Assembly: GCA_002842035.1 (NCBI GenBank)
Contig: PHBP01000001.1
Location: 171,198-235,197 of the forward strand
DNA: 64,000 bases
Origin: Candidatus Cloacimonetes bacterium HGW-Cloacimonetes-2
GTDB taxonomy: Bacteria; Cloacimonadota; Cloacimonadia; Cloacimonadales; Cloacimonadaceae
Reading direction: 5' to 3'
This document shows positions 20,302-57,271 of the stretch, in pieces; positions within the stretch are counted from its first letter, which is position 1, and the number at the start of each line of letters is the position of its first letter. Both the position numbers and the translations under genes were made by a program. Under the pieces are notes generated by a model. It searched no databases. It was not told the origin of the DNA and saw only the letters and a list, made by a program, of their open reading frames with translations.

Positions 20302-21066
20302 TTAATAAGCCATAATATTTATTCCTGCATCGACATAGATCGTTTCACCAGTCACTCCCGAGGAATAATCCGAGAGCAGGTAAAGGGCAGTCTTGGCTAT
20401 ATCTTCCAAGCTTATATTACGCGCCAGTGGCGCTGTCTTCTCAATCCGCTTTTGCATCTGCCCGATGCCACCGATTACAGCAGAAGACAGGGTCTTAATA
20501 GGACCGGCAGAGATAGCATTTACCCGGATATTATCCGAACCCAAGCTATGTGCCAGATAACGTACGCTTGCTTCCAGAGCAGCTTTTGCCACACCCATTA
20601 CTCCGTAATGGGGCACTACCTTTTCTCCACCGTAGTAGGTAAGAGTAAGCGCCGTAGAGCCGGGATGGAGCAGAGGCTTTGCTTCTTTCAAAGTAGCAAT
20701 AAAGGAATAGACGCTGATATCCATCGCCGTGAGAAAGCCATTACGGCTGCACTCGTGGAATGCTCCGTTCAATTCATCCTTGGGAGCATAGGCAATGCTG
20801 TGGACGATGATATCTACACTATCCCAAAGCTTGGCAACCTGAGAAAAGAGCTCACGAATGCTGTAATCTTTGGAGACATCGCATTCGATGCAGTGCTTCG
20901 CTCCAAGCTCCTCAGCCAGCGGCAGAACTCTCTTTAATAGCGCAGGAGACGCATAAGACAGTATCAATTCAGCTCCGCTATCCACCAAGGCTCTGGATAT
21001 GCCGTAGGCTATCGAGTAGTTGTTTGCAACGCCCATCACAAGGGCTTTCTTTCCTTTCAAGTCCAT
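20302..21066 (-). CDS. fabI: Enoyl-[acyl-carrier-protein] reductase (NADH), FabI
   Basis: A 254-residue short-chain dehydrogenase-fold enzyme that reduces trans-2-enoyl-ACP in the last step of each fatty acid elongation cycle. It carries the FabI-type nucleotide motif GVANNYSIAYGI. The catalytic Tyr-x6-Lys is Tyr154/Lys161 in PHYGVMGVAKAALE. The family signatures HSIAYAPKDEL and RVNAISAGPIKTL are also present. Length is as expected. The start has GGGAG 5 nt upstream and directly abuts the lipoprotein stop. Its place after the MCE cluster links lipid synthesis with envelope maintenance. Confidence 0.95.
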   Translation of the reverse strand: MDLKGKKALVMGVANNYSIAYGISRALVDSGAELILSYASPALLKRVLPLAEELGAKHCIECDVSKDYSIRELFSQVAKLWDSVDIIVHSIAYAPKDELNGAFHECSRNGFLTAMDISVYSFIATLKEAKPLLHPGSTALTLTYYGGEKVVPHYGVMGVAKAALEASVRYLAHSLGSDNIRVNAISAGPIKTLSSAVIGGIGQMQKRIEKTAPLARNISLEDIAKTALYLLSDYSSGVTGETIYVDAGINIMAY

Positions 21067-21942
21067 TTATTCTCCCGTAACTGCAATTTTATCAAGATCA
21101 GCTTCAACCTTGCTGATCATTTCCAGATTGGCATAAGATTGGAAGACCTGACGCGCTTTTAACAATAGCGATAGCGCTTCCACATTCTTACCACGTGCCA
21201 TCTGAGTCTTTGCCTGAAGCCACAAGCTGTAGCCCAGAGAAGCAAAATTACCATAGCTGTAATCCAAGTTTACAGATCTTCTTAAGTAGTAATCAGCCTT
21301 GTCCAAATTCCCGGCAACATAGTAATGATATGCCAATGAATAGGCTGCCTGCGAAAGAATTTGTGGATTTATCTGTCTTTTGCGCAGTGGCTTGCGAAAG
21401 TGTTTCGCTGCCAGGCGCTCCAGTTGTCGAACCTTGCTTTGATCTGTATTCTCAAGATAGGCATCTGCCTGAATCTTGTAAGATAAGACCTGCATCTTCT
21501 GTGAATCTGTATATTTTTCCGAAGCAACAGCCACTATGGATATCTCTTGATAGTTCCTGTCCAGTTGCAGTTTGTGCAAATCATAGAGTAACAAAATCAC
21601 AGCATTATCCGGATCAATTTGCTCCGCAATCTCCTGCATCTCATAACGATACTCATCTGCCGCATCGTGATCGGATTGCTCCAGCTTGATCCGCGCCAAG
21701 CCCGATAGACAGTACATCTGCCCCTCAGTATTGGCAAAGCTGCGATACAGATCCAGCGCAAAGACATAGGTATCGATAGCATTGGCAAAACGCTTTTGTT
21801 GCTCGTAATCCTGAGCCAATTTCAAAGCATTGTCCGCATTGAATTTCGCCTGAGGTTGCAAGGGTTGTTTCAGGCTGGAACAAGCAACCATTATAAGCGC
21901 TAGAGCCGCCAAAAGCAGCAGTTTACTCACCCGGGAGATCAC
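21067..21942 (-). CDS. TPR-containing lipoprotein
   Basis: A 291-residue predicted lipoprotein with signal peptide and lipobox ending LIMVAC (Cys about 21). It is followed by helical repeats of TPR type (ALKLAQDYEQQKRFANAIDTY, then later ADYYLRRSVNLDYSYGNFASLGYSLW). The likely start is GTG 21942 with GAGG 4 nt upstream, and it overlaps the end of the MlaD-like gene by 20 nt. Position suggests an envelope partner of the MCE system, such as an outer-membrane-facing component, but this is inference from context. Confidence 0.75.
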   Translation of the reverse strand: MISRVSKLLLLAALALIMVACSSLKQPLQPQAKFNADNALKLAQDYEQQKRFANAIDTYVFALDLYRSFANTEGQMYCLSGLARIKLEQSDHDAADEYRYEMQEIAEQIDPDNAVILLLYDLHKLQLDRNYQEISIVAVASEKYTDSQKMQVLSYKIQADAYLENTDQSKVRQLERLAAKHFRKPLRKRQINPQILSQAAYSLAYHYYVAGNLDKADYYLRRSVNLDYSYGNFASLGYSLWLQAKTQMARGKNVEALSLLLKARQVFQSYANLEMISKVEADLDKIAVTGE

Positions 21943-23096: not shown

Positions 23097-23717
23097 TCAA
23101 AGCTCCACACTGTGCTTTGCAAAGCCTATACAAAAGTCATCGTCCGAGCTATTGATCAGCATATGCTGTGTGCTCCGAAGTTCGCTCAGAACAGTCAAAA
23201 TCCGTCTCCGTTGCTTCTGATCCAAGAGGTAATATGGATCATCCAAAAGCAGAATCCTGGGGTTAAACAGCATAGCCCGTATCAAGCTAAGTATCTTGAT
23301 CACCGAGGGCTTTACCATTGAGGGACGCAGATTCAAATCCACTATTAGCTCAAAACGCTCCATCCAGATTGCCAGTTCATCTTCAAAGGTGTCATCCGCC
23401 GAGTTATCCTTGATTAATTTGTAAGGCAAGAGCAGGTTCTCCCGCAGACTCAGATTGGCCAGCATTATCCCATGCGCAAAGACATAGCCAAAAATCCTGG
23501 GGAGAGGTTCTGACAGGATCAATTCCTGCACAGCAATGCCATCGATCAGGATCTCTCCCGAGTGCTCCCTACCCATACCAAGCATAGCGGTAAGAACCGA
23601 GCTTGCCAGATCGTTATCCTCTGTCCTGATTACACATACAGGATCAAGGATCAGTTCCCTGTTTAGAACCGGGGCTTCAGCTCTGGTCTTGAAATTCTTT
23701 AGCTCTATCCGGATCAT
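23097..23717 (-). CDS. Degenerate MlaF-like ABC ATPase (catalytic motifs lost)
   Basis: A 206-residue protein with recognisable ABC ATPase topology between MlaE- and MlaD-like genes, but no catalytic motif survives. The Walker A segment reads VIRTEDNDLASSV instead of GxxGxGKS/T. The Q-loop segment reads GYVFAHGIM with no Gln. The LSGGQ position reads LRPSMVKPSV. The Walker B segment reads ILLLDDPYYLLD (Glu to Asp), and the switch His is absent (LINSSDDDF). Hydrophobic core patterns (SGEILIDGI, NLSLRENLLLPYKL, RAMLFNPRILLLDDP) are kept, and the frame is long and intact. This argues for a folded pseudo-ATPase rather than random decay. It shares an ATGA overlap with the MlaE-like gene. Confidence 0.8.
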   Translation of the reverse strand: MIRIELKNFKTRAEAPVLNRELILDPVCVIRTEDNDLASSVLTAMLGMGREHSGEILIDGIAVQELILSEPLPRIFGYVFAHGIMLANLSLRENLLLPYKLIKDNSADDTFEDELAIWMERFELIVDLNLRPSMVKPSVIKILSLIRAMLFNPRILLLDDPYYLLDQKQRRRILTVLSELRSTQHMLINSSDDDFCIGFAKHSVEL

Positions 23718-24478
23718 TTAAGCATCCAAAAGATCCAGGTGATCAGGATATCGCTGATAACAACCAAGGTAATCGAGTTTACAACTGCTTTAATCGTACG
23801 CTGCGGCACCTCAGTCGTGGCGTGGCTAACGCTCATCCCCTCATAGCTGGAGACCAGCGAGATCAGGAGCCCGAAAACAAGCGGTTTCAAGAGCATCATC
23901 ACGATACTTCCGAGTTTCAGCTCCATAAAGAAATCACCCATAAACGACCTGAATTCTATACTGCTAAAAATCTGTGAAAAGAGCCATCCACCGAATACCG
24001 CGATGATATTAAAGTAGATTGTCAGGATCAGCATTGCGATCATTACGCCGTAGATTCTGGATACTACGAGATAGGAGATGGGCGACAGACCATAACTCTT
24101 TAACAAGTCAACTTCCCGGTTTACGACCATATTGCCTAGCTCCGTCGCAATAGCCGTACCGCTTCGGGCAACCACTACCAAAGCAGTAATGATGGCGCTT
24201 AGTTCATTGATTATCACTGTTACCAGGATCATATGAACCAAATTACCCTGTCCAAAAGTGGAAAGCAGGCTATAACCCTGCATAATCACCAAACCGCCAA
24301 TCGCCAAAGCTATGAAGCTGATCAGGGGCAATGCCTCATAACCGGTAAACAGGATTTGGCGCATTATCACCATCAGGCTTACATGGCTATTACCCTTGAG
24401 GTGGGCAGCCTCGTGCAAAGCAGTCCCGGCAAAAGAAAAAAAGTCCAGGAAGGACTTTTTTTCGGCAGGATTTCTCAT
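23714..24478 (-). CDS. MlaE-like ABC permease of the MCE system
   Basis: A 254-residue inner-membrane protein with about five to six hydrophobic segments. The MlaE family core is present (LISFIALAIGGLVIMQGY, then VVVARSGTAIATELGNMVVNREVDLL, and GLLISLVSSYEGMSVS). The start is taken at the internal ATG 24478 (MRNPAEKKSF), because the longer frame runs back through the upstream gene. No clear Shine-Dalgarno is seen, so coupling to that gene is possible. In the family, MlaE contacts the ATPase through the loop reading EQIDAL; here it reads REVDLL. Confidence 0.85.
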   Translation of the reverse strand: MRNPAEKKSFLDFFSFAGTALHEAAHLKGNSHVSLMVIMRQILFTGYEALPLISFIALAIGGLVIMQGYSLLSTFGQGNLVHMILVTVIINELSAIITALVVVARSGTAIATELGNMVVNREVDLLKSYGLSPISYLVVSRIYGVMIAMLILTIYFNIIAVFGGWLFSQIFSSIEFRSFMGDFFMELKLGSIVMMLLKPLVFGLLISLVSSYEGMSVSHATTEVPQRTIKAVVNSITLVVISDILITWIFWMLK

Positions 24479-24492
24479 ATATGGATTTGTTT

Positions 24493-24849
24493 TTATTTCA
24501 ATATAAGGGTCTTTTTTGTGGATGTATAGCGTCCCTGGTAATTGACTACTACGCTGTAAGCACCAGTGGGTACGTAGATTCCGCTGTCGGAAATACGATT
24601 CCATCCAAGTACAAGGTTTTTGCTTACGATTCCGCTGTACAGATGCTTGATGATGGTACCGCCTTCTTCTTCAATGTATACTGTGGCATAGCACTGCCCA
24701 CTGAACTCCAGGTGGATATTGGTATGATTCTGCATAGGATTGGGGCTGATTTCAAAACCGGCCAGCGTAGGAACGCGGGTCGAGGCAACTAAGCCTGTCA
24801 CGATCAGCATCATACTGATCACCAAACCGATCATTATCACCTTTTTCAT
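24493..24849 (-). CDS. Minimal exported protein consisting of a signal peptide and a sorting-type domain
   Basis: A 118-residue protein. Signal peptide about 1-23 leads almost directly into a complete FlgD-like/T9SS-type C-terminal domain (FEISPNPMQNHTNIHLEF ... YVPTGAYSVVVNYQG ... KKTLILK). There is no passenger domain. The start has a GGAG about 7 nt upstream. It lies 14 nt before the MlaE-like gene on the same strand, so it may be the first gene of that operon. It could be a structural surface protein, a decoy or competitor for the export machinery, or a remnant. Confidence 0.75.
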   Translation of the reverse strand: MKKVIMIGLVISMMLIVTGLVASTRVPTLAGFEISPNPMQNHTNIHLEFSGQCYATVYIEEEGGTIIKHLYSGIVSKNLVLGWNRISDSGIYVPTGAYSVVVNYQGRYTSTKKTLILK

Positions 24850-25137: not shown

Positions 25138-25219
25138 GAGCAGATCACCAGCAGATCACCAGCAAATCAAGTCGAACGCGGTTCGAGGTGAATTGCTCTT
25201 GATTTGCTTTTGATATCGG
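25138..25219. repeat. Modular intergenic hairpin repeat, copy 3
   Basis: Left arm: GATCACCAGCA twice, then AATCAAGTCGAAC. Right arm (complement): GATATCAAAAGCA, AATCAAGAGCA, ATTCACCTCGAAC. The loop is GCG. The arms align module by module with several mismatches. It lies 3' of the tRNA cluster. Confidence 0.85.
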
Positions 25220-25330: not shown

Positions 25331-25406
25331 TGGGGTGGGTGATGGGAGTCGAACCCACAACGCCCGGAACCACAATCCGGTGCTCTGCCATTGAACTACA
25401 CCCACC
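25331..25406 (-). tRNA. tRNA-His(GTG)
   Basis: A cloverleaf is readable on the minus strand. The acceptor GTGGGTG/CACCCAC has an extra G at -1 opposite C73, the hallmark of tRNA-His. The anticodon loop is TTGTGGT, and the T-loop GGGTTCGACTCCC is followed by an encoded CCA. Confidence 0.95.
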
Positions 25407-25449
25407 ACTACATTGATACTATCACTCTATCATAGTCACGATTGAAAGC

Positions 25450-25526
25450 TGGCACGCCAGAAGGGATTCGAACCCCTGACCCGCAGCTTAGAAGGCTGCT
25501 GCTCTATCCTACTGAGCTACTGGCGC
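25450..25526 (-). tRNA. tRNA-Arg(TCT)
   Basis: Minus-strand cloverleaf with acceptor GCGCCAG/CTGGCGT (G-U closing pair), D-arm AGCTCAGTAGGATAGAGC, anticodon loop CTTCTAA, T-loop GGGGTTCGAATCCC and encoded CCA. Confidence 0.95.
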
Positions 25527-25534
25527 CTATTTGA

Positions 25535-25611
25535 TGGTAGCGGCGCAGGGATTTGAACCCCGGACCTGCGGATTATGATTCCGACGCTCTAACCAGCTGA
25601 GCTACGCCGCC
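25535..25611 (-). tRNA. tRNA-Met(CAT), elongator type
   Basis: Minus-strand cloverleaf with acceptor GGCGGCG, D-arm AGCTCAGCTGGTTAGAGC, anticodon loop ATCATAA, T-loop GGGGTTCAAATCCC and encoded CCA. It lacks initiator features. A lysidine-modified tRNA-Ile2 would also carry a CAT anticodon and is not fully excluded. Confidence 0.88.
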
Positions 25612-25621
25612 ACATCTTTCT

Positions 25622-25646
25622 AAAAAAAAGAGAGAATGAACTCTCT
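25622..25646 (-). terminator. Intrinsic terminator after tRNA-fMet
   Basis: Minus strand: AGAGAG-TTCATT-CTCTCT followed by seven T residues, 10 nt after the initiator tRNA. It separates that gene from the next tRNA. Confidence 0.75.
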
Positions 25647-25656
25647 ATGTAAAAAA

Positions 25657-25732
<76 letters not shown>

Positions 25733-31188: not shown

Positions 31189-31284
31189 CTATAGTCACCA
31201 GCAGATCAAGAGCAAATCAAGAGCAATTCAAGTCGAACCGGGTTCGACTTGATTTGCTCTTGATCTGCTGGTGATCTCCTGTAG
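31189..31284. repeat. Modular intergenic hairpin repeat, copy 4
   Basis: A 96-bp hairpin. The left arm has modules GATCAAGAGCA, AATCAAGAGCA, ATTCAAGTCGAAC. The right arm (complement) has GATCAAGAGCA, AATCAAGTCGAAC, so the left arm holds one extra module. Core GAAC-CGG-GTTC. It lies beyond the protease terminator and upstream of the pst promoter. Confidence 0.93.
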
Positions 31285-31344: not shown

Positions 31345-34300
31345 TTACTTTAGCATAATGAAGCGCTTGGTAGAGCTGAAGCTTCCAGCGCTCATACGAT
31401 AGAGGTAGATTCCGCTACCGACAGAAACACCCAGATCGCTCTTGCCATCCCAAATCTTGCTATAGAAACCGGGCTGGTTGTGGTTTTCTGTGATGCTTCG
31501 CACCAGTTGTCCTCTGGAATTGAATACCTCCAGGCGAACAACGCAGGGGTGGTCGATGGCATAGCTGATCGTGGTAGAGGGATTGAAGGGATTCGGGTAG
31601 GCACCGATCAGTTGAGTCACCAGAGGAAGAGCAGGATTCTGATTGCCACCATTGGGATAATACTCGATTGAGAGCGGGCCATAGAAGGCACTCGAGCCAT
31701 CCATTTCCAAGCTCTGCAGCCAATAATGCACCAGTCCATCGCTATTGAGGTCCTGATCCACGTAAACGTATGATTGTTGCTGGGATGTGTTTGTCCCCTC
31801 GATTAGGACTTGCAGATTGAGCGCAGTCTCCAAATCGAGTTCATTATTACGGTAGATATTGTAGCCCAGGCAGTTTGATTCCGACTCCGTGATCCACATC
31901 AGCATCACTTTGTTTTGGGCGTTGATCGTGGCAGTAAAGGCAGAGAGCTCCACCGGCAGAGTATTGTCATAATTACCCAAGCTTATGATAGCTTCGCCCT
32001 TGGCATCCAGATCACAGACAAAGCTGATCACGCCATCTACGGCTTCGTGGAGATGCCATTGACTGCCCAGATAGACCGCTGCATCAGTATAAGCAGTCGT
32101 TATCGAGATATTGACTGTACCGGTACCGCTCAGGCTGAAACTAAGCATAGATTGGAATCCTGCGGGAATCCCGGCTGGAGGCACTATCTCTGAATTATAG
32201 ATCAATGGATCAGTTCCATCATGTGAAAGTACCGCATCGGGATCGATCACAGTGGGATCTTCGGGAATAATCGCATAGGGGGTATAAGTGAAAGTCCAGG
32301 TAGGACAATCAGTTGCATCTGCTCTGTCCGCTGCGGGTGATCTGAGAGAAGTGCCTCCCTTGGAGCCATCAAAGGGAATCACTTTCCAGGTATGGATACC
32401 TGAGCTGAGCGTAGGGGTAGTCCAGCCAGGGGTAGTGAGATTGGCTGCGACAAGGCTTTCGTCAAGGTATAGCTTGTATCCGATAGCCTGTAGTCCACTG
32501 GGATTGGCCTGCCAGGCGAGAGTCACTCCTCCCGGAGTAAAGCTATAAACGGTAGTCCCATTTGCCGGTTCCGGATTGATCGCCGGTAATGGACTATTGG
32601 GTGCTAAACCGGGAATGAGGATATCATCCAAACGCAGCATATACTGATCAGTGCAGTCATAATGGCGGAAGGCGAGGTAAATATCCATACCAGTAAAAGC
32701 ACTGAGACTGAGCGTGCGCAGATGCCAGGAGCCATCTGTCATAGTCTCTGTAAAGAGAGTATTAGTAAATGCGGAGAGCTGATTTGTAGTAGTGGAGATC
32801 ATCACCGAGTATTTCTCGGCAGGCCAGGCGGGATCGAGAGCACCGATGTAATATGAGAGTTCATCTCCGCTTTGTATCCTGATTCTAGGTGAAATGAGCC
32901 AGTTATCAGGGGTTAATGCCCCGCGTCCTTGTCCCTTAGAGGAATCAGTGATCTCTTTGGAGGCAATATAGGAAGCACTTACCGCGCAATTGTTACCGCC
33001 GTGGGCATAGCTCGCATTGGCTAGATTTTGCCAGTTGTAGGTATCTGCATCGACATCCATAATTGTCCAGTTAGTTGGCGGGAAGGTCGCTCCCTCAAAA
33101 TCGATGTTCTGATAATCACCGTAACCTTTGAGATTGATCGTGAAGCTGCCACCATTTGTTACAATGTCAAAAGTTCCGGTCTGAATCCCTTTGGCAAGTG
33201 GATTAAAGCTAAAGCCAAAGTTATGCGTGGCACCCGCGGTCAAGGTCACTGAGCTGTTGAAAGTAGTCGTGAAAGCTGCGCCTGATAAGATCGCGCTGGT
33301 AATGGTCAGTGTCCCCGTCCCAATGTTCTTGAGCTGGAAGATGCTCCCGGAGGAAGTAGTTCCATTGACCGGGGCTACACCTTGCCAGTAGTTAGCATTG
33401 AGGGATGCGAGAGGTTCGCTGGCTTCTGTTACATTCAAGGTAATAGGAATCACCATATTGTCTCCCTTGAGGCTTCCGCTGGGAGCAATATAATTTGAAT
33501 TGTTGTAAATAGTCAGATAAGCATTGTATGCCCCGGCTGCTAAATCTGTGGTGTCAAAGGATAGATTGACGTTAGCAGTACCGGCAGGGCTTACTGTGCC
33601 ACTGGTGGGATTTACACTGATCCAGCGATTTCCGGAGATATTGGCACTGAAGATGTTCTCTATCCCCATAGCCGTCCAGGAGCCGGCAGAGCCATAAAAG
33701 GATGTACCGTAGTCATAATCTGCAGCTACGGTATAGGGCTTGCCGCTGGTAGTGCCTTCAGGTACTACTGCCACCCAGAAATCACCACTTACAGTGATCG
33801 GTGTGGGCAAGGTGTAATCTGTCGCAGTCCAGCTTGTAGTTGGCTTTAGAGCAGTAATCCAGCCGGACGTATGGAGTACGGTAACGCCATCTGCGGCATA
33901 TATCTTGAATTGGAAGGTGTCTTCAGTACCCCAGAGATCATCAGCAGCTTCGTAGAAATATGCCCTTAACTGGCTGATAGTAAGTCCGCTGTTGCTCCAC
34001 ATTCCAAAATCACCGATGGAGAATTTGGTAGCTCTTTCAGTAACTGAGGCAGAAAGATATGACACATCAGCTATATCGCCATAGGAGATCCAACCGGTAA
34101 CAGAATCTTTGGATTGAGGAAGAGCAAGGGGTGCTGCTATCCTCGTAGCATTAGCCGGAGGGAGCTTCTTGCTGAAGGACCTGTCAAGGCTGCCGGATGA
34201 GGATGCTTTACTCAGGCTGAGAGCATACTGCAGACTGGCTGTGCCACCGGGATTGGAGATCGCAAGTACCTGGCTCTCGCTTTGTCCCAGATAGAGATTG

Positions 34301-37017
34301 GATGTAAAAGAGCTATGATTGGTCTGCATCTCTGCCCAAGTAAGGTAAAAATCCTGGCTCGTGGTAAGGTTGTTTGAAATCACAACACCGGATGCGGACG
34401 AATTGAAATAGAAAGCTCCCGGGGTTGAGGCTGTTACACTGTATGTTCCAGCCAGAATGTTGTTGATCAGATAGTAGCCGCTTGTATTGGTGTAGGCAGT
34501 CTTGGAGCCAATCTGCACGAGGGCATTGGCAATCGGAGTGCTCGTCCCGGAGCGGTAAACATAACCGCTGAGGTGTCCCAATTGGGGAGGTGGAGGCACA
34601 CTGTCATCCTGGGCCAGGAAGTCATCGATCAAGAGGAAGAAAGCATCATTAGAGACGCATTGAATGGCAATATAGACGTTTGAGTTGTTAGCACAATTAG
34701 CAGGCAGATTGTAGCTATACTGCGTCCAGGTGACCGGAGCAGAAATGTAGGTAGTGGCAGATCCAGCCAGATAGGTCGTGAAGTTTGAATAGCTATTTCC
34801 AGTGGTTGAGACCAGCACCTTGAAACGTTCCAAGCCATAATCTGCCACATAGGATCTAGCCCAGAAGCTGATTCTGGGATTTGCCCCAAAGCTCAATCTG
34901 GGGCTGATCAACCAGTCGTTGTTGGGAGGAGTCGTAGCGGCAAAACACGCTGCATATTGAGAACCTCCGTGAGCTTCTGCACCTGAGATTGCCGGAACGG
35001 TGGCGGTTGGATCATAGACGATAAATGACCCGGTATATCCAGAATTTGCCCAGGTGACATCGGTAATCCCATAGGTTGTAGAGCCATCACCATCGTACTG
35101 CGTCCAGGGGCTGATATCCAGAGTAAAATCAGTATAAGTCTCGAATCCATCCGAATAGACAGATGCCGGAGCCGTTCCGCTGAGAGTGACAGTTACTGTG
35201 CCTCCGGAAGTGGTGATAACATAGCTCTGGTTGTCCGATCCATAATCAATTGGATCGTAGGCAAAGCCAAATTCGTGAGATTGCCCAGCTACCAGGGCGA
35301 TATTGGTATTTAAAGTGCTGCTGAATTCAGTCGTGGAGAGATTGGTCACAGAACTGATAGTAAGCACTCCCTGTCCGATGTTTGTAAGGCTAAAGATCGC
35401 TCCGCTACTAGCTGAGTTACCTGGGGCGACAGAGCCCGCAGCCCAGGAACTGAGATTCAGATTGGCAATGGGATTGGGATCTACCCAGAGTTGTGGGCCA
35501 TTGATGTCATCGAGGTATATAGTCTTTCCCTGAGAGTTGTTATTGGTGGAGTTTACCTCAAAACAGAGATAATAGTCACCGGGGGTCAGTGTATTAAAGT
35601 TTACCGTATAAGTAGCTGCAGTTGATGTGAGAGCTGCTGTGGAATAGTAATCCGTCCAGGTAGTACCGTTTGTGGAGGTGCGGATCTTGAGGTATTCATA
35701 ACGGTTCAGATTGGCTCTTCTGGCCTTGAAAGACAGAGTGCTGGCGGTATCGATTGTGAGCTTTGGGGTTACCAGCCTTACACCATTTGCAGTTCCAGTG
35801 TAATAGGCTGAAGCTGTACCGGTAATCGGATTGGTAGCATATCTTGTCCAAGTCGTAGCCGATCTGCTCCATCCGATGGGCGGGAATGTAGTCCCCTCAA
35901 AACCTTCTGTAAGATTGGTAAATTGCTCTCTGGGTTGGATGCCGATCACAGCTTGCTGGGAACTGGTGAAATTATCTGTGCCCGGATTGAGTGCACTCAG
36001 GTAGAAGTATCCGTTGTAATAGCCATACCATCCCCAGTTGATGTGGAAATAGTTTGTTCCGGAATAACCATCCATCACAAAGGCATGTCCTCCGGATTCG
36101 GTGCTGGAACCGGAGTAATAGACCGGCCTGTAGTTATCCAGCTCTCCCCGCATCAGAGCTTCCCAATTGGCTTCGGAGTAGGAGGATTTCTGCTTCCAGG
36201 AAGCAGTATCTTTGTATTTAAAATAGGTCGTAAGAGCAGCAGGTACATCAAAACTATAAGCTCCAGAACCATCCGGACCATAATCCATATCTACTGAGAT
36301 ACCTGTGTGGCGGCAGATAGTCGCAACTGCTGAGTTTGACGATGAGGTGGAATTGGGCATTGATGCCCAGTTGTAAACAGTATTACCAAAATCCGCTGAC
36401 TGGGTGCCATAGGTGGGATGATAATAGCTATGGGTGCCTGATCCGGTCGTAGGGTATGCCCAATAGCGCATAATCTGCGACATCGCGGTCGCAACGCAGC
36501 CGACCGGGGTATTGGATGGGCACAAAGCATTGTATGGTGAGCCTTGTCCCCAGGTTGAAGTAATCAAAGGTGAGACGGCACGAAGATCACGCTGAACTTG
36601 AAATTGATCTTTGGGCTGGGCATAGTGTTGCCAAAGCTCACGTATCTTGGTGTCTTGCGGTAGATTCATAGATCTGATCTGTCCAATTTGCTCGGCCCAG
36701 TTGCTTATGAAATAGCTCAGTTGGGGTGGAAAATCAGCTTCGCCCCAGCGTCCACTATCACTATAACCCAGGATGGGATTGGCAGCATCATCGCCCGATA
36801 CAATCACAAATCCTGCAGGATTGAGATGAACAAAGTAGATTACGCCTTGCTGATTTGTGGAGTTAAGATTGGTGATTGTAGAATTCAGGTATGTCTTACC
36901 GCTACGTTCCAGCATTAGGTTCTCAGCCACTCGGATTGCAAGCTCCGGGCTAACGATCCCGGCAAATAGATGCAACGTTAAAAATAGAAAAAGCACTGGT
37001 AATAATGATCTCTTCAT
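31345..37017 (-). CDS. Secreted C10 (streptopain-like) cysteine protease, giant multidomain, with sorting domain
   Basis: A 1890-residue exported protein. It has a signal peptide (about 1-20) and a Spi-type propeptide (AIRVAENLMLERSGK ... FVIVSGDDAANPILGYS). The C10 peptidase domain has Cys174 in PVGCVATAMSQIMRYW, His311 in GGHAFVMDGY and FHINWGWYG. Next come cleaved-adhesin/MAM-like sandwiches (first near residue 375, another near 1390), a carboxypeptidase-regulatory-like fold (LSGYVYRSGTSTPIANALVQIG), Ig-like modules, and a C-terminal sorting domain from about 1805 (YPNPFNPSTTISYAI ... GSGIYLYRMS). The catalytic pair is intact, so it should be active after propeptide removal. The start could be 37026 or 37017; the latter has better spacing to GGAG. 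Related enzymes are secreted proteases. Confidence 0.88.
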   Translation of the reverse strand: MKRSLLPVLFLFLTLHLFAGIVSPELAIRVAENLMLERSGKTYLNSTITNLNSTNQQGVIYFVHLNPAGFVIVSGDDAANPILGYSDSGRWGEADFPPQLSYFISNWAEQIGQIRSMNLPQDTKIRELWQHYAQPKDQFQVQRDLRAVSPLITSTWGQGSPYNALCPSNTPVGCVATAMSQIMRYWAYPTTGSGTHSYYHPTYGTQSADFGNTVYNWASMPNSTSSSNSAVATICRHTGISVDMDYGPDGSGAYSFDVPAALTTYFKYKDTASWKQKSSYSEANWEALMRGELDNYRPVYYSGSSTESGGHAFVMDGYSGTNYFHINWGWYGYYNGYFYLSALNPGTDNFTSSQQAVIGIQPREQFTNLTEGFEGTTFPPIGWSRSATTWTRYATNPITGTASAYYTGTANGVRLVTPKLTIDTASTLSFKARRANLNRYEYLKIRTSTNGTTWTDYYSTAALTSTAATYTVNFNTLTPGDYYLCFEVNSTNNNSQGKTIYLDDINGPQLWVDPNPIANLNLSSWAAGSVAPGNSASSGAIFSLTNIGQGVLTISSVTNLSTTEFSSTLNTNIALVAGQSHEFGFAYDPIDYGSDNQSYVITTSGGTVTVTLSGTAPASVYSDGFETYTDFTLDISPWTQYDGDGSTTYGITDVTWANSGYTGSFIVYDPTATVPAISGAEAHGGSQYAACFAATTPPNNDWLISPRLSFGANPRISFWARSYVADYGLERFKVLVSTTGNSYSNFTTYLAGSATTYISAPVTWTQYSYNLPANCANNSNVYIAIQCVSNDAFFLLIDDFLAQDDSVPPPPQLGHLSGYVYRSGTSTPIANALVQIGSKTAYTNTSGYYLINNILAGTYSVTASTPGAFYFNSSASGVVISNNLTTSQDFYLTWAEMQTNHSSFTSNLYLGQSESQVLAISNPGGTASLQYALSLSKASSSGSLDRSFSKKLPPANATRIAAPLALPQSKDSVTGWISYGDIADVSYLSASVTERATKFSIGDFGMWSNSGLTISQLRAYFYEAADDLWGTEDTFQFKIYAADGVTVLHTSGWITALKPTTSWTATDYTLPTPITVSGDFWVAVVPEGTTSGKPYTVAADYDYGTSFYGSAGSWTAMGIENIFSANISGNRWISVNPTSGTVSPAGTANVNLSFDTTDLAAGAYNAYLTIYNNSNYIAPSGSLKGDNMVIPITLNVTEASEPLASLNANYWQGVAPVNGTTSSGSIFQLKNIGTGTLTITSAILSGAAFTTTFNSSVTLTAGATHNFGFSFNPLAKGIQTGTFDIVTNGGSFTINLKGYGDYQNIDFEGATFPPTNWTIMDVDADTYNWQNLANASYAHGGNNCAVSASYIASKEITDSSKGQGRGALTPDNWLISPRIRIQSGDELSYYIGALDPAWPAEKYSVMISTTTNQLSAFTNTLFTETMTDGSWHLRTLSLSAFTGMDIYLAFRHYDCTDQYMLRLDDILIPGLAPNSPLPAINPEPANGTTVYSFTPGGVTLAWQANPSGLQAIGYKLYLDESLVAANLTTPGWTTPTLSSGIHTWKVIPFDGSKGGTSLRSPAADRADATDCPTWTFTYTPYAIIPEDPTVIDPDAVLSHDGTDPLIYNSEIVPPAGIPAGFQSMLSFSLSGTGTVNISITTAYTDAAVYLGSQWHLHEAVDGVISFVCDLDAKGEAIISLGNYDNTLPVELSAFTATINAQNKVMLMWITESESNCLGYNIYRNNELDLETALNLQVLIEGTNTSQQQSYVYVDQDLNSDGLVHYWLQSLEMDGSSAFYGPLSIEYYPNGGNQNPALPLVTQLIGAYPNPFNPSTTISYAIDHPCVVRLEVFNSRGQLVRSITENHNQPGFYSKIWDGKSDLGVSVGSGIYLYRMSAGSFSSTKRFIMLK

Positions 37018-37494
37018 CTTTCCCATTCTCCTCTAAGATAATCTCTTACGTGCTGACCCATACGATAGAAAACTTTTCTATTTAGTCAAGATATTTTTGT
37101 AGAAAATCAATACTGATAATGGTTATGAAGCAAGATACTGTAGTTATAAGGCTGTCTTTGAGGAGCTTAGCGTATTCAAGAAATCAGTCTTTAATCAAAA
37201 TTGCATACTGAAACTCCTCCATTGCAGATAATTGAAAACCATATCCCTAAATCACTACCGGCTCCACACTCCTCTAAGCGACCACAACAGAACTACCCAA
37301 GGCTGCTCTCACAATTCACCCACTTTGTGGGAGAATCGTGGGAGACAGCTGGGAGAAATCTATTAAGAACCCTAAATAGGGACAGGAAATATCCTAGTGT
37401 TTTGGCTGGACAAATAAAGGAAAAGCAGACGGATTATGGCAGGCACCAATGAATGACTATGGCTTGGTACATAGATCGAGTATAGACAGCCTTA
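37018..37494. other. Intergenic region between the sigma factor and protease genes, no gene seen
   Basis: It holds the protease promoter region and the downstream region of the sigma factor gene. A short TTG-started plus-strand frame (37201-37452) has no Shine-Dalgarno or family resemblance. No strong terminator was found. Confidence 0.35.
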
Positions 37495-57118: not shown

Positions 57119-57182
57119 TGATAGATAAACCTCTGTTGATATATCAGATAGGCAGGTCTATCCGCCTTTTGCCCCAATAGAT

Positions 57183-57271
57183 CTACAGCAGATCAAGAGC
57201 AGATCAAGAGCAATTCACCTCGAACCGCGTTCGACTTGATTTGCTCTTGATCTGCTCTTGATCTGCTTTAG
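57183..57271. repeat. Modular intergenic hairpin repeat, copy 5 (inverted relative to copies 1-3)
   Basis: An 89-bp hairpin. Left arm: GATCAAGAGCA, GATCAAGAGCA, ATTCACCTCGAAC. Right arm (complement): GATCAAGAGCA twice, AATCAAGTCGAAC. Core GAAC-CGC-GTTC. The AAG/ACC mismatch near the loop is on the opposite side from copies 1-3, so this copy is in the other orientation. It lies 64 nt after the membrane protein stop. Confidence 0.93.

Follow-up and report, generated by a model that had tools for sequence, protein, structure and literature searches.

An operon of the Mla/MCE lipid-transport type in Candidatus Cloacimonetes bacterium HGW-Cloacimonetes-2 encodes, in the position of the ATPase MlaF, a nucleotide-binding domain (NBD) that has lost five catalytic-motif residues but is conserved together with its permease. 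The gene lies within a 64,000-nucleotide stretch of DNA, the whole of which was analysed and is called the window below. Judged from its sequence and its predicted structure, this pseudo-NBD is an ABC ATPase by descent, with a true ABC-ATPase fold. The reading favored here, which on balance is probably correct, gives it a structural or gating role: most likely dimeric and seated beneath MlaE, it would hold this permease within an MCE lipid bridge that works without hydrolysing ATP itself.

ATP use defines ABC transporters. A dead but conserved NBD, the only one linked to its permease, would part the motor role of the NBD from its structural role; it would also bear on an open question concerning MCE systems, the need for ATP in lipid flow between membranes. 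Moreover, intermediates among lineages make the order of loss testable.

Gene Organization

A preliminary description of the window placed an ABC-ATPase-like gene between MlaE- and MlaD-like genes. Pfam profiles identify all three (Table 1), with ABC_tran matching the central protein at E = 1.3e-6 (29.4 bits, cut-off 25). The frame is intact, as described, and its ATG overlaps the mlaE stop codon as ATGA (positions 23717-23714); the strand, previously left unstated, is minus. The start listed for mlaE, 24604, runs into the upstream FlgD-like gene. The real start is likelier to be the ATG at about 24478, judging by homologous sequences, which begin about 42 residues after the listed start.

Table 1. 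Features of the lipid-transport cluster, by position in the window.
Feature	Position	Strand	Basis or remark
Pseudo-NBD in the MlaF position, 206 residues	23097..23717	-	Open reading frame, Pfam, alignment, model
MlaE permease	23714..24478	-	Pfam MlaE PF02405, 3.9e-57; listed open reading frame 23714-24604
Stretch coding for the MlaE coupling helix (approximate), NMVVNREVDLLKSYG	24079..24120	-	Arg at the position of E. coli E127
MCE (MlaD-like) protein, 361 residues	21923..23008	-	Pfam MlaD PF02470, 1.6e-7, 31.9 bits versus 25.1
TPR lipoprotein with lipobox-like ...IMVACSS, downstream in the operon	21067..21942	-	Adjoins the MCE gene across the family
FabI-type enoyl-ACP reductase, gene abutting that of the lipoprotein	20302..21066	-	Same place in several genera
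FlgD-Ig-like protein, small and secreted; its gene immediately precedes mlaE	24493..24849	-	Conserved in the family (synteny); Pfam FlgD_ig 0.026, below cut-off

The monomer model of the MCE protein shows a transmembrane helix at the N terminus, then a single MCE domain and a C-terminal part that is long and helical; pLDDT is 60 for the whole chain and about 87 for the MCE part, the tail being of low confidence. No STAS domain (MlaB) was matched among the six cluster proteins scanned, and no PF05494 match (MlaC carrier) was found in the genome. The fabI gene is followed on the minus strand by genes for an amidohydrolase and then a TldD/PmbA-type protein. FabI lies within the lipid-transport cluster in genera g1, g3, g8, and g9, and is absent from it in genomes G025 and G003; its presence might point to some connection with the supply of lipids, but proves nothing.

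Fold and Catalytic Motifs

An AlphaFold2 model of the pseudo-NBD, built on 31 orthologues, has a pLDDT of 94.5 and a pTM of 0.90. Foldseek returned 1,177 PDB matches to it at E ≤ 0.001, and these matches are ABC ATPases: the top one by E-value is MceG in the Mce1 complex (8fed), and MlaF (6xbd) also is found, with TM-scores of about 0.83 (0.83 to MlaF). Together, model and matches rule out a structure unlike that of ABC ATPases. The ABC_tran profile is matched by 29 of the 31 aligned orthologues. A PADLOC match to mads_3 (2.5e-4) was discarded, since it reflects similarity common to ABC proteins over a short segment.

Alignment to E. coli MlaF bears out the losses read earlier from the sequence: the Walker A lysine (K47 to A), the Q-loop glutamine (Q92 to A), the signature (LSGGM to VKPSV), the Walker B glutamate (E170 to D), and the switch histidine (H203 to S). 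Two further losses went unmentioned in the preliminary description: the window protein has no A-loop segment and none of the C-terminal extension of MlaF, and across the family the alignment stops short of that extension. Relatives share this degenerate condition. Among 24 family orthologues from eight genera, K47, Q92, the signature, E170, and H203 each are present in none, and normal Walker motifs occur in 0/24; the canonical MlaF paralogue, which served as the control, retains all of these catalytic residues in 30/30 genomes. Because the losses are seen in every orthologue and the motifs in every paralogue, chance or sequencing error is excluded. The open frames and shared losses of the 24 orthologues likewise rule out a local pseudogene or an assembly error.

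The preliminary description went slightly too far in one respect, the loss of "all" catalytic motifs: the five motif residues are gone, but the Walker B aspartate (Asp169) is retained in the window protein and in 22 of the 24 family members. Its retention may be structural, or may be left over from the binding of a metal or nucleotide.

Distribution and Order of Loss

The MlaE clade of the window was found in 41 of the 125 phylum genomes searched; these represent 17 genera, which fall into six families and two orders. A scan of a wider genome collection found only one locus, from Candidatus Cloacimonadota. In the MlaE tree, this clade makes up one side of a 100/100 branch.

The signature and switch histidine are missing from all 39 orthologues (24 from the family of the window, 15 from five others). 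The 15 outside members retain the remaining residues to varying extents: the Walker A lysine in seven, the Q-loop glutamine in 12, and the catalytic glutamate in five. Mapped on the MlaE tree, the Walker A lysine must have been lost three times or more (in families f1, f10, and f13). In the simplest history suggested by these sequences, the signature and histidine would have been lost early and the P-loop repeatedly later, because the former are absent from 39/39 whereas seven orthologues keep the lysine. The order of the deepest losses is less certain, because the outgroup branch of the tree is long and the tree carries a warning that long branches may have been joined (f10). For the clade as a whole (six families, two orders), there is about an even chance that an ABC transporter has turned ATP-hydrolysis-free, with an NBD solely structural or gating in function and with living intermediates.

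In two loci of family f10 (L083 and L084), the gene immediately after mlaE and the pseudo-NBD gene is predicted to encode a transporter-like membrane protein, and no MCE gene adjoins them; Walker A in these loci reads GLS in place of GKS.

The MlaE Interface and the Canonical MlaF

In E. coli, the MlaE coupling helix contacts MlaF through the pairs E127-R52, Q128-L96, S131-R157, M135-Y108, and R142-E112 (PMC7784689). The conserved residues of the pseudo-NBD cluster in F80-P98 (FGYVFDEGIMLSNLSLRENLLLP), which aligns with the Q-loop and the start of the helical subdomain. At the positions of MlaF L96, Y108, and R157, the family has M (24/24), L (24/24), and R (23/24), respectively; R52 is gone from most members. 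On the permease side, the E127 position is Glu in 29/29 canonical MlaE proteins, Arg in 22/24 from the family of the window, and N, Q, H, or S in other families, and the S131 position is Leu in 39/39. Thus, near-invariant NBD contacts combined with altered E127 and S131 positions suggest a gripping surface that is retained, yet altered on both sides. A strict swap of the E127-R52 salt bridge finds only part support: the f6, f7, f9, and f10 NBDs keep Lys, and their MlaE proteins lack Glu. Because this Lys persists despite loss of the Glu, a changed interface is claimed here, not a compensated pair.

The preliminary description offered three mechanisms: transport without ATP, a borrowed ATPase, or a pseudo-ATPase scaffold. 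Combined, the first and third fit best. The second, in which the canonical MlaF would power this MlaE, either alone or as a heterodimer with the pseudo-NBD as accessory, is the main rival; it is weakened and now seems unlikely. Its appeal lies in gene number and precedent. The earlier description pointed to the possibility of a second MlaF, and the genome does encode one canonical MlaF elsewhere, on contig C8, for three MlaE genes; the next-best match in the MlaF search was C8:233856, at 35% identity, and the operon of the pseudo-NBD contains no second NBD. Sharing of one ATPase is known, since MceG serves several Mce systems (PMC9947336). Within this genome, the MlaE at C11:209278-209970 (G000, L076) has neither an adjoining ATPase gene nor an adjoining MCE gene. 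Because there is only one canonical MlaF and no ATPase gene adjoins that of the C11 MlaE, the latter probably shares the C8 protein, and together with an orphan MCE protein encoded at C6:104149 (L077) it may form a third system that does so.

Three observations argue against extending this arrangement to the MlaE of the window. At the E127 position it carries Arg; all canonical MlaE proteins examined carry Glu there, and so does the C11 protein with its canonical coupling helix. The Lys facing a lost Glu in four families is the weak point of this argument, as E127-R52 is not a strict pair. A heterodimer of the pseudo-NBD with the only canonical MlaF of the genome would leave no intact site, because one site lacks the signature and the other lacks Walker A. 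Finally, the pseudo-NBD is never found apart from mlaE. An unrelated or shared ATPase could nevertheless drive the permease, which counts against the ATP-free reading.

A separate observation concerns the canonical C8 MlaE, which has a long N-terminal extension that is STAS-like in appearance.

A Proposed Structural or Gating NBD

A non-hydrolysing structural NBD is favored because neither a homodimer nor a heterodimer with MlaF gives a normal ATP site. The dead NBD, which keeps its fold, most likely sits as a dimer beneath the MlaE permease and would retain the groove for the MlaE coupling helix while neither sandwiching nor hydrolysing ATP. Its job would be to assemble, stabilise, or gate MlaE. 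The permease, pseudo-NBD, MCE protein, and lipoprotein together would act as a lipid gate and would bridge the membranes without themselves hydrolysing ATP, and lipid flow presumably would be governed by supply and demand or by another gradient. The formation of this complex, its failure to bind nucleotide, and the passive nature and direction of transport are what we infer from the fold, the lost motifs, the conservation, the linkage, and the altered coupling helix.

Two sets of mutants bear on the model, the first in its favor and the second against it. E. coli MlaF requires both its Walker A lysine and its Walker B glutamate, each missing from the window protein; the K47A and E170Q forms do not complement (PMC7367683), and therefore a normal Mla system would not function if its NBD were dead. 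In mycobacteria, MceG Walker B mutants destabilise Mce complexes (PMC9947336); an inactive NBD thus need not make a good scaffold.

The Former ATP Site

Rather than serving structure alone, the old ATP site might have been remade for another ligand or partner, making the pseudo-NBD a sensor or regulator. In that role it would gate the flow of lipids, perhaps in connection with fatty-acid synthesis. The site is surrounded by near-fixed new residues: D192, F195, and R170 (24/24 each) and Y163 (23/24). At the D-loop Asp position, 23/24 have N; the window protein keeps D. These residues may, however, merely staple the fold, and FabI, on which the link to fatty-acid synthesis rests, belongs to the cluster in several genera but is absent from it in others (G025 and G003). 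Such a regulatory site is distinctly improbable, more so than a borrowed MlaF.

Persistence of non-canonical ATP binding or hydrolysis is very improbable. The retained Walker B aspartate and the seven members of other families that keep Walker A speak for it, but Walker A, Q-loop, signature, histidine, and A-loop all are gone within the family, and the replacement residues differ from genome to genome, unlike those of a rebuilt active site.

Maintenance and Selection

The earlier suggestion that this gene is maintained has proved sound. The NBD is present in 25 of the 26 family genomes with this MlaE, the exception being a locus that stops at a contig edge, and a matching MCE protein likewise in 25 of 26. 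Conversely, the 24 family genomes lacking this MlaE contain no NBD (0/24) and an MCE fragment in one. Fisher tests of co-occurrence, which count genomes as independent though they are related, give p of about 4e-13 for MlaE with NBD and about 8e-12 for MlaE with MCE. The pseudo-NBD gene adjoins mlaE in 39/39 loci, some of which have no MCE gene nearby; for example, in G011 the MCE gene is unlinked, the two loci being at 187.7 kb and 1.607 Mb of one contig. Frames are open at all loci examined, one of which (L040) has a run of N inside the gene.

Within the family of the window, most dN/dS estimates suffer from saturation (dS above 2 or undefined); the closer f13 pairs were used instead. In these unsaturated pairs, dN/dS is 0.08-0.15 for the pseudo-NBD versus 0.04-0.07 for MlaE. 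In 19 genomes that contain both systems, mean pairwise identity is 42% for the pseudo-NBD versus 73% for the canonical NBD, and is lower in 171/171 pairs; the corresponding permeases show 66% (this MlaE) versus 62% (canonical). On these sequence comparisons, constraint on catalysis has been lifted from the NBD alone. Decay under relaxed selection, en route to loss, is the least probable alternative: the faster evolution of the pseudo-NBD and the absence of the whole system from genera g5 and g6 would fit it, but not the open frames, the low dN/dS, the new invariant residues, or the joint retention with MlaE and the MCE protein.

Relation to Known Systems

Like MlaFEDB of E. coli, the system of the window has an MlaE-type permease, an MCE protein, and an ABC-fold NBD encoded together. 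MlaFEDB, however, has MlaB, MlaC, and the MlaF C-terminal extension, none of which was found here by STAS scan of the cluster, PF05494 search of the genome, or alignment, respectively. The Mce1 and Mce4 systems of mycobacteria also are MCE systems, whose permease may be without its own ATPase gene, and MceG provides the top structural match; yet MceG is an active ATPase common to several systems, whereas the window encodes a dead NBD with the permease and has an altered coupling helix. The minimal MlaEFD system of Veillonella parvula, in which an elongated D joins E and F and no other subunit, has been proposed to form a transenvelope bridge (PMC10665443). The MCE protein of the window resembles this elongated D in its long helical tail, as modelled with low confidence. 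Unlike the pseudo-NBD, V. parvula MlaF closely resembles the MlaF of model diderms (PMC10665443).

Precedent for ATPase-free MCE transport comes from PqiABC and LetAB, MCE bridges with a membrane partner that lacks an ATPase domain (PMC12436622). PqiA and LetA, however, are not MlaE-type ABC permeases and have no NBD; the window system has both. Degenerate NBDs, for their part, are well known in heterodimers with one good site: TM287/288, TmrAB, ABCC1, and ABCG5/G8 have selected degenerate motifs, and a structural role has been given to the degenerate site (PMC7756269). These heterodimers keep one intact composite site, whereas the sole NBD encoded at this locus lacks both halves. Among the open-licence papers searched, no description was found of an MCE system, or of another ABC transporter, with a sole linked NBD that has lost both halves of its site.

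Other Features of the Window

Four tRNA genes (25334-25732, minus strand) lie between the lipid-transport operon and the phoU/pst genes. On the same strand, 31345-37026 encodes a secreted protein of 1,893 residues with Spi inhibitor, C10 peptidase, cleaved-adhesin, and FlgD-Ig sorting-like domains. Short arrays with an 11-base period (AGATCAAGAGC, CTTGATCTGCT, AGCAAATCAAG, and AGCAGATCACC) occur at 57179-57267, 31200-31232, and 25139-25169.
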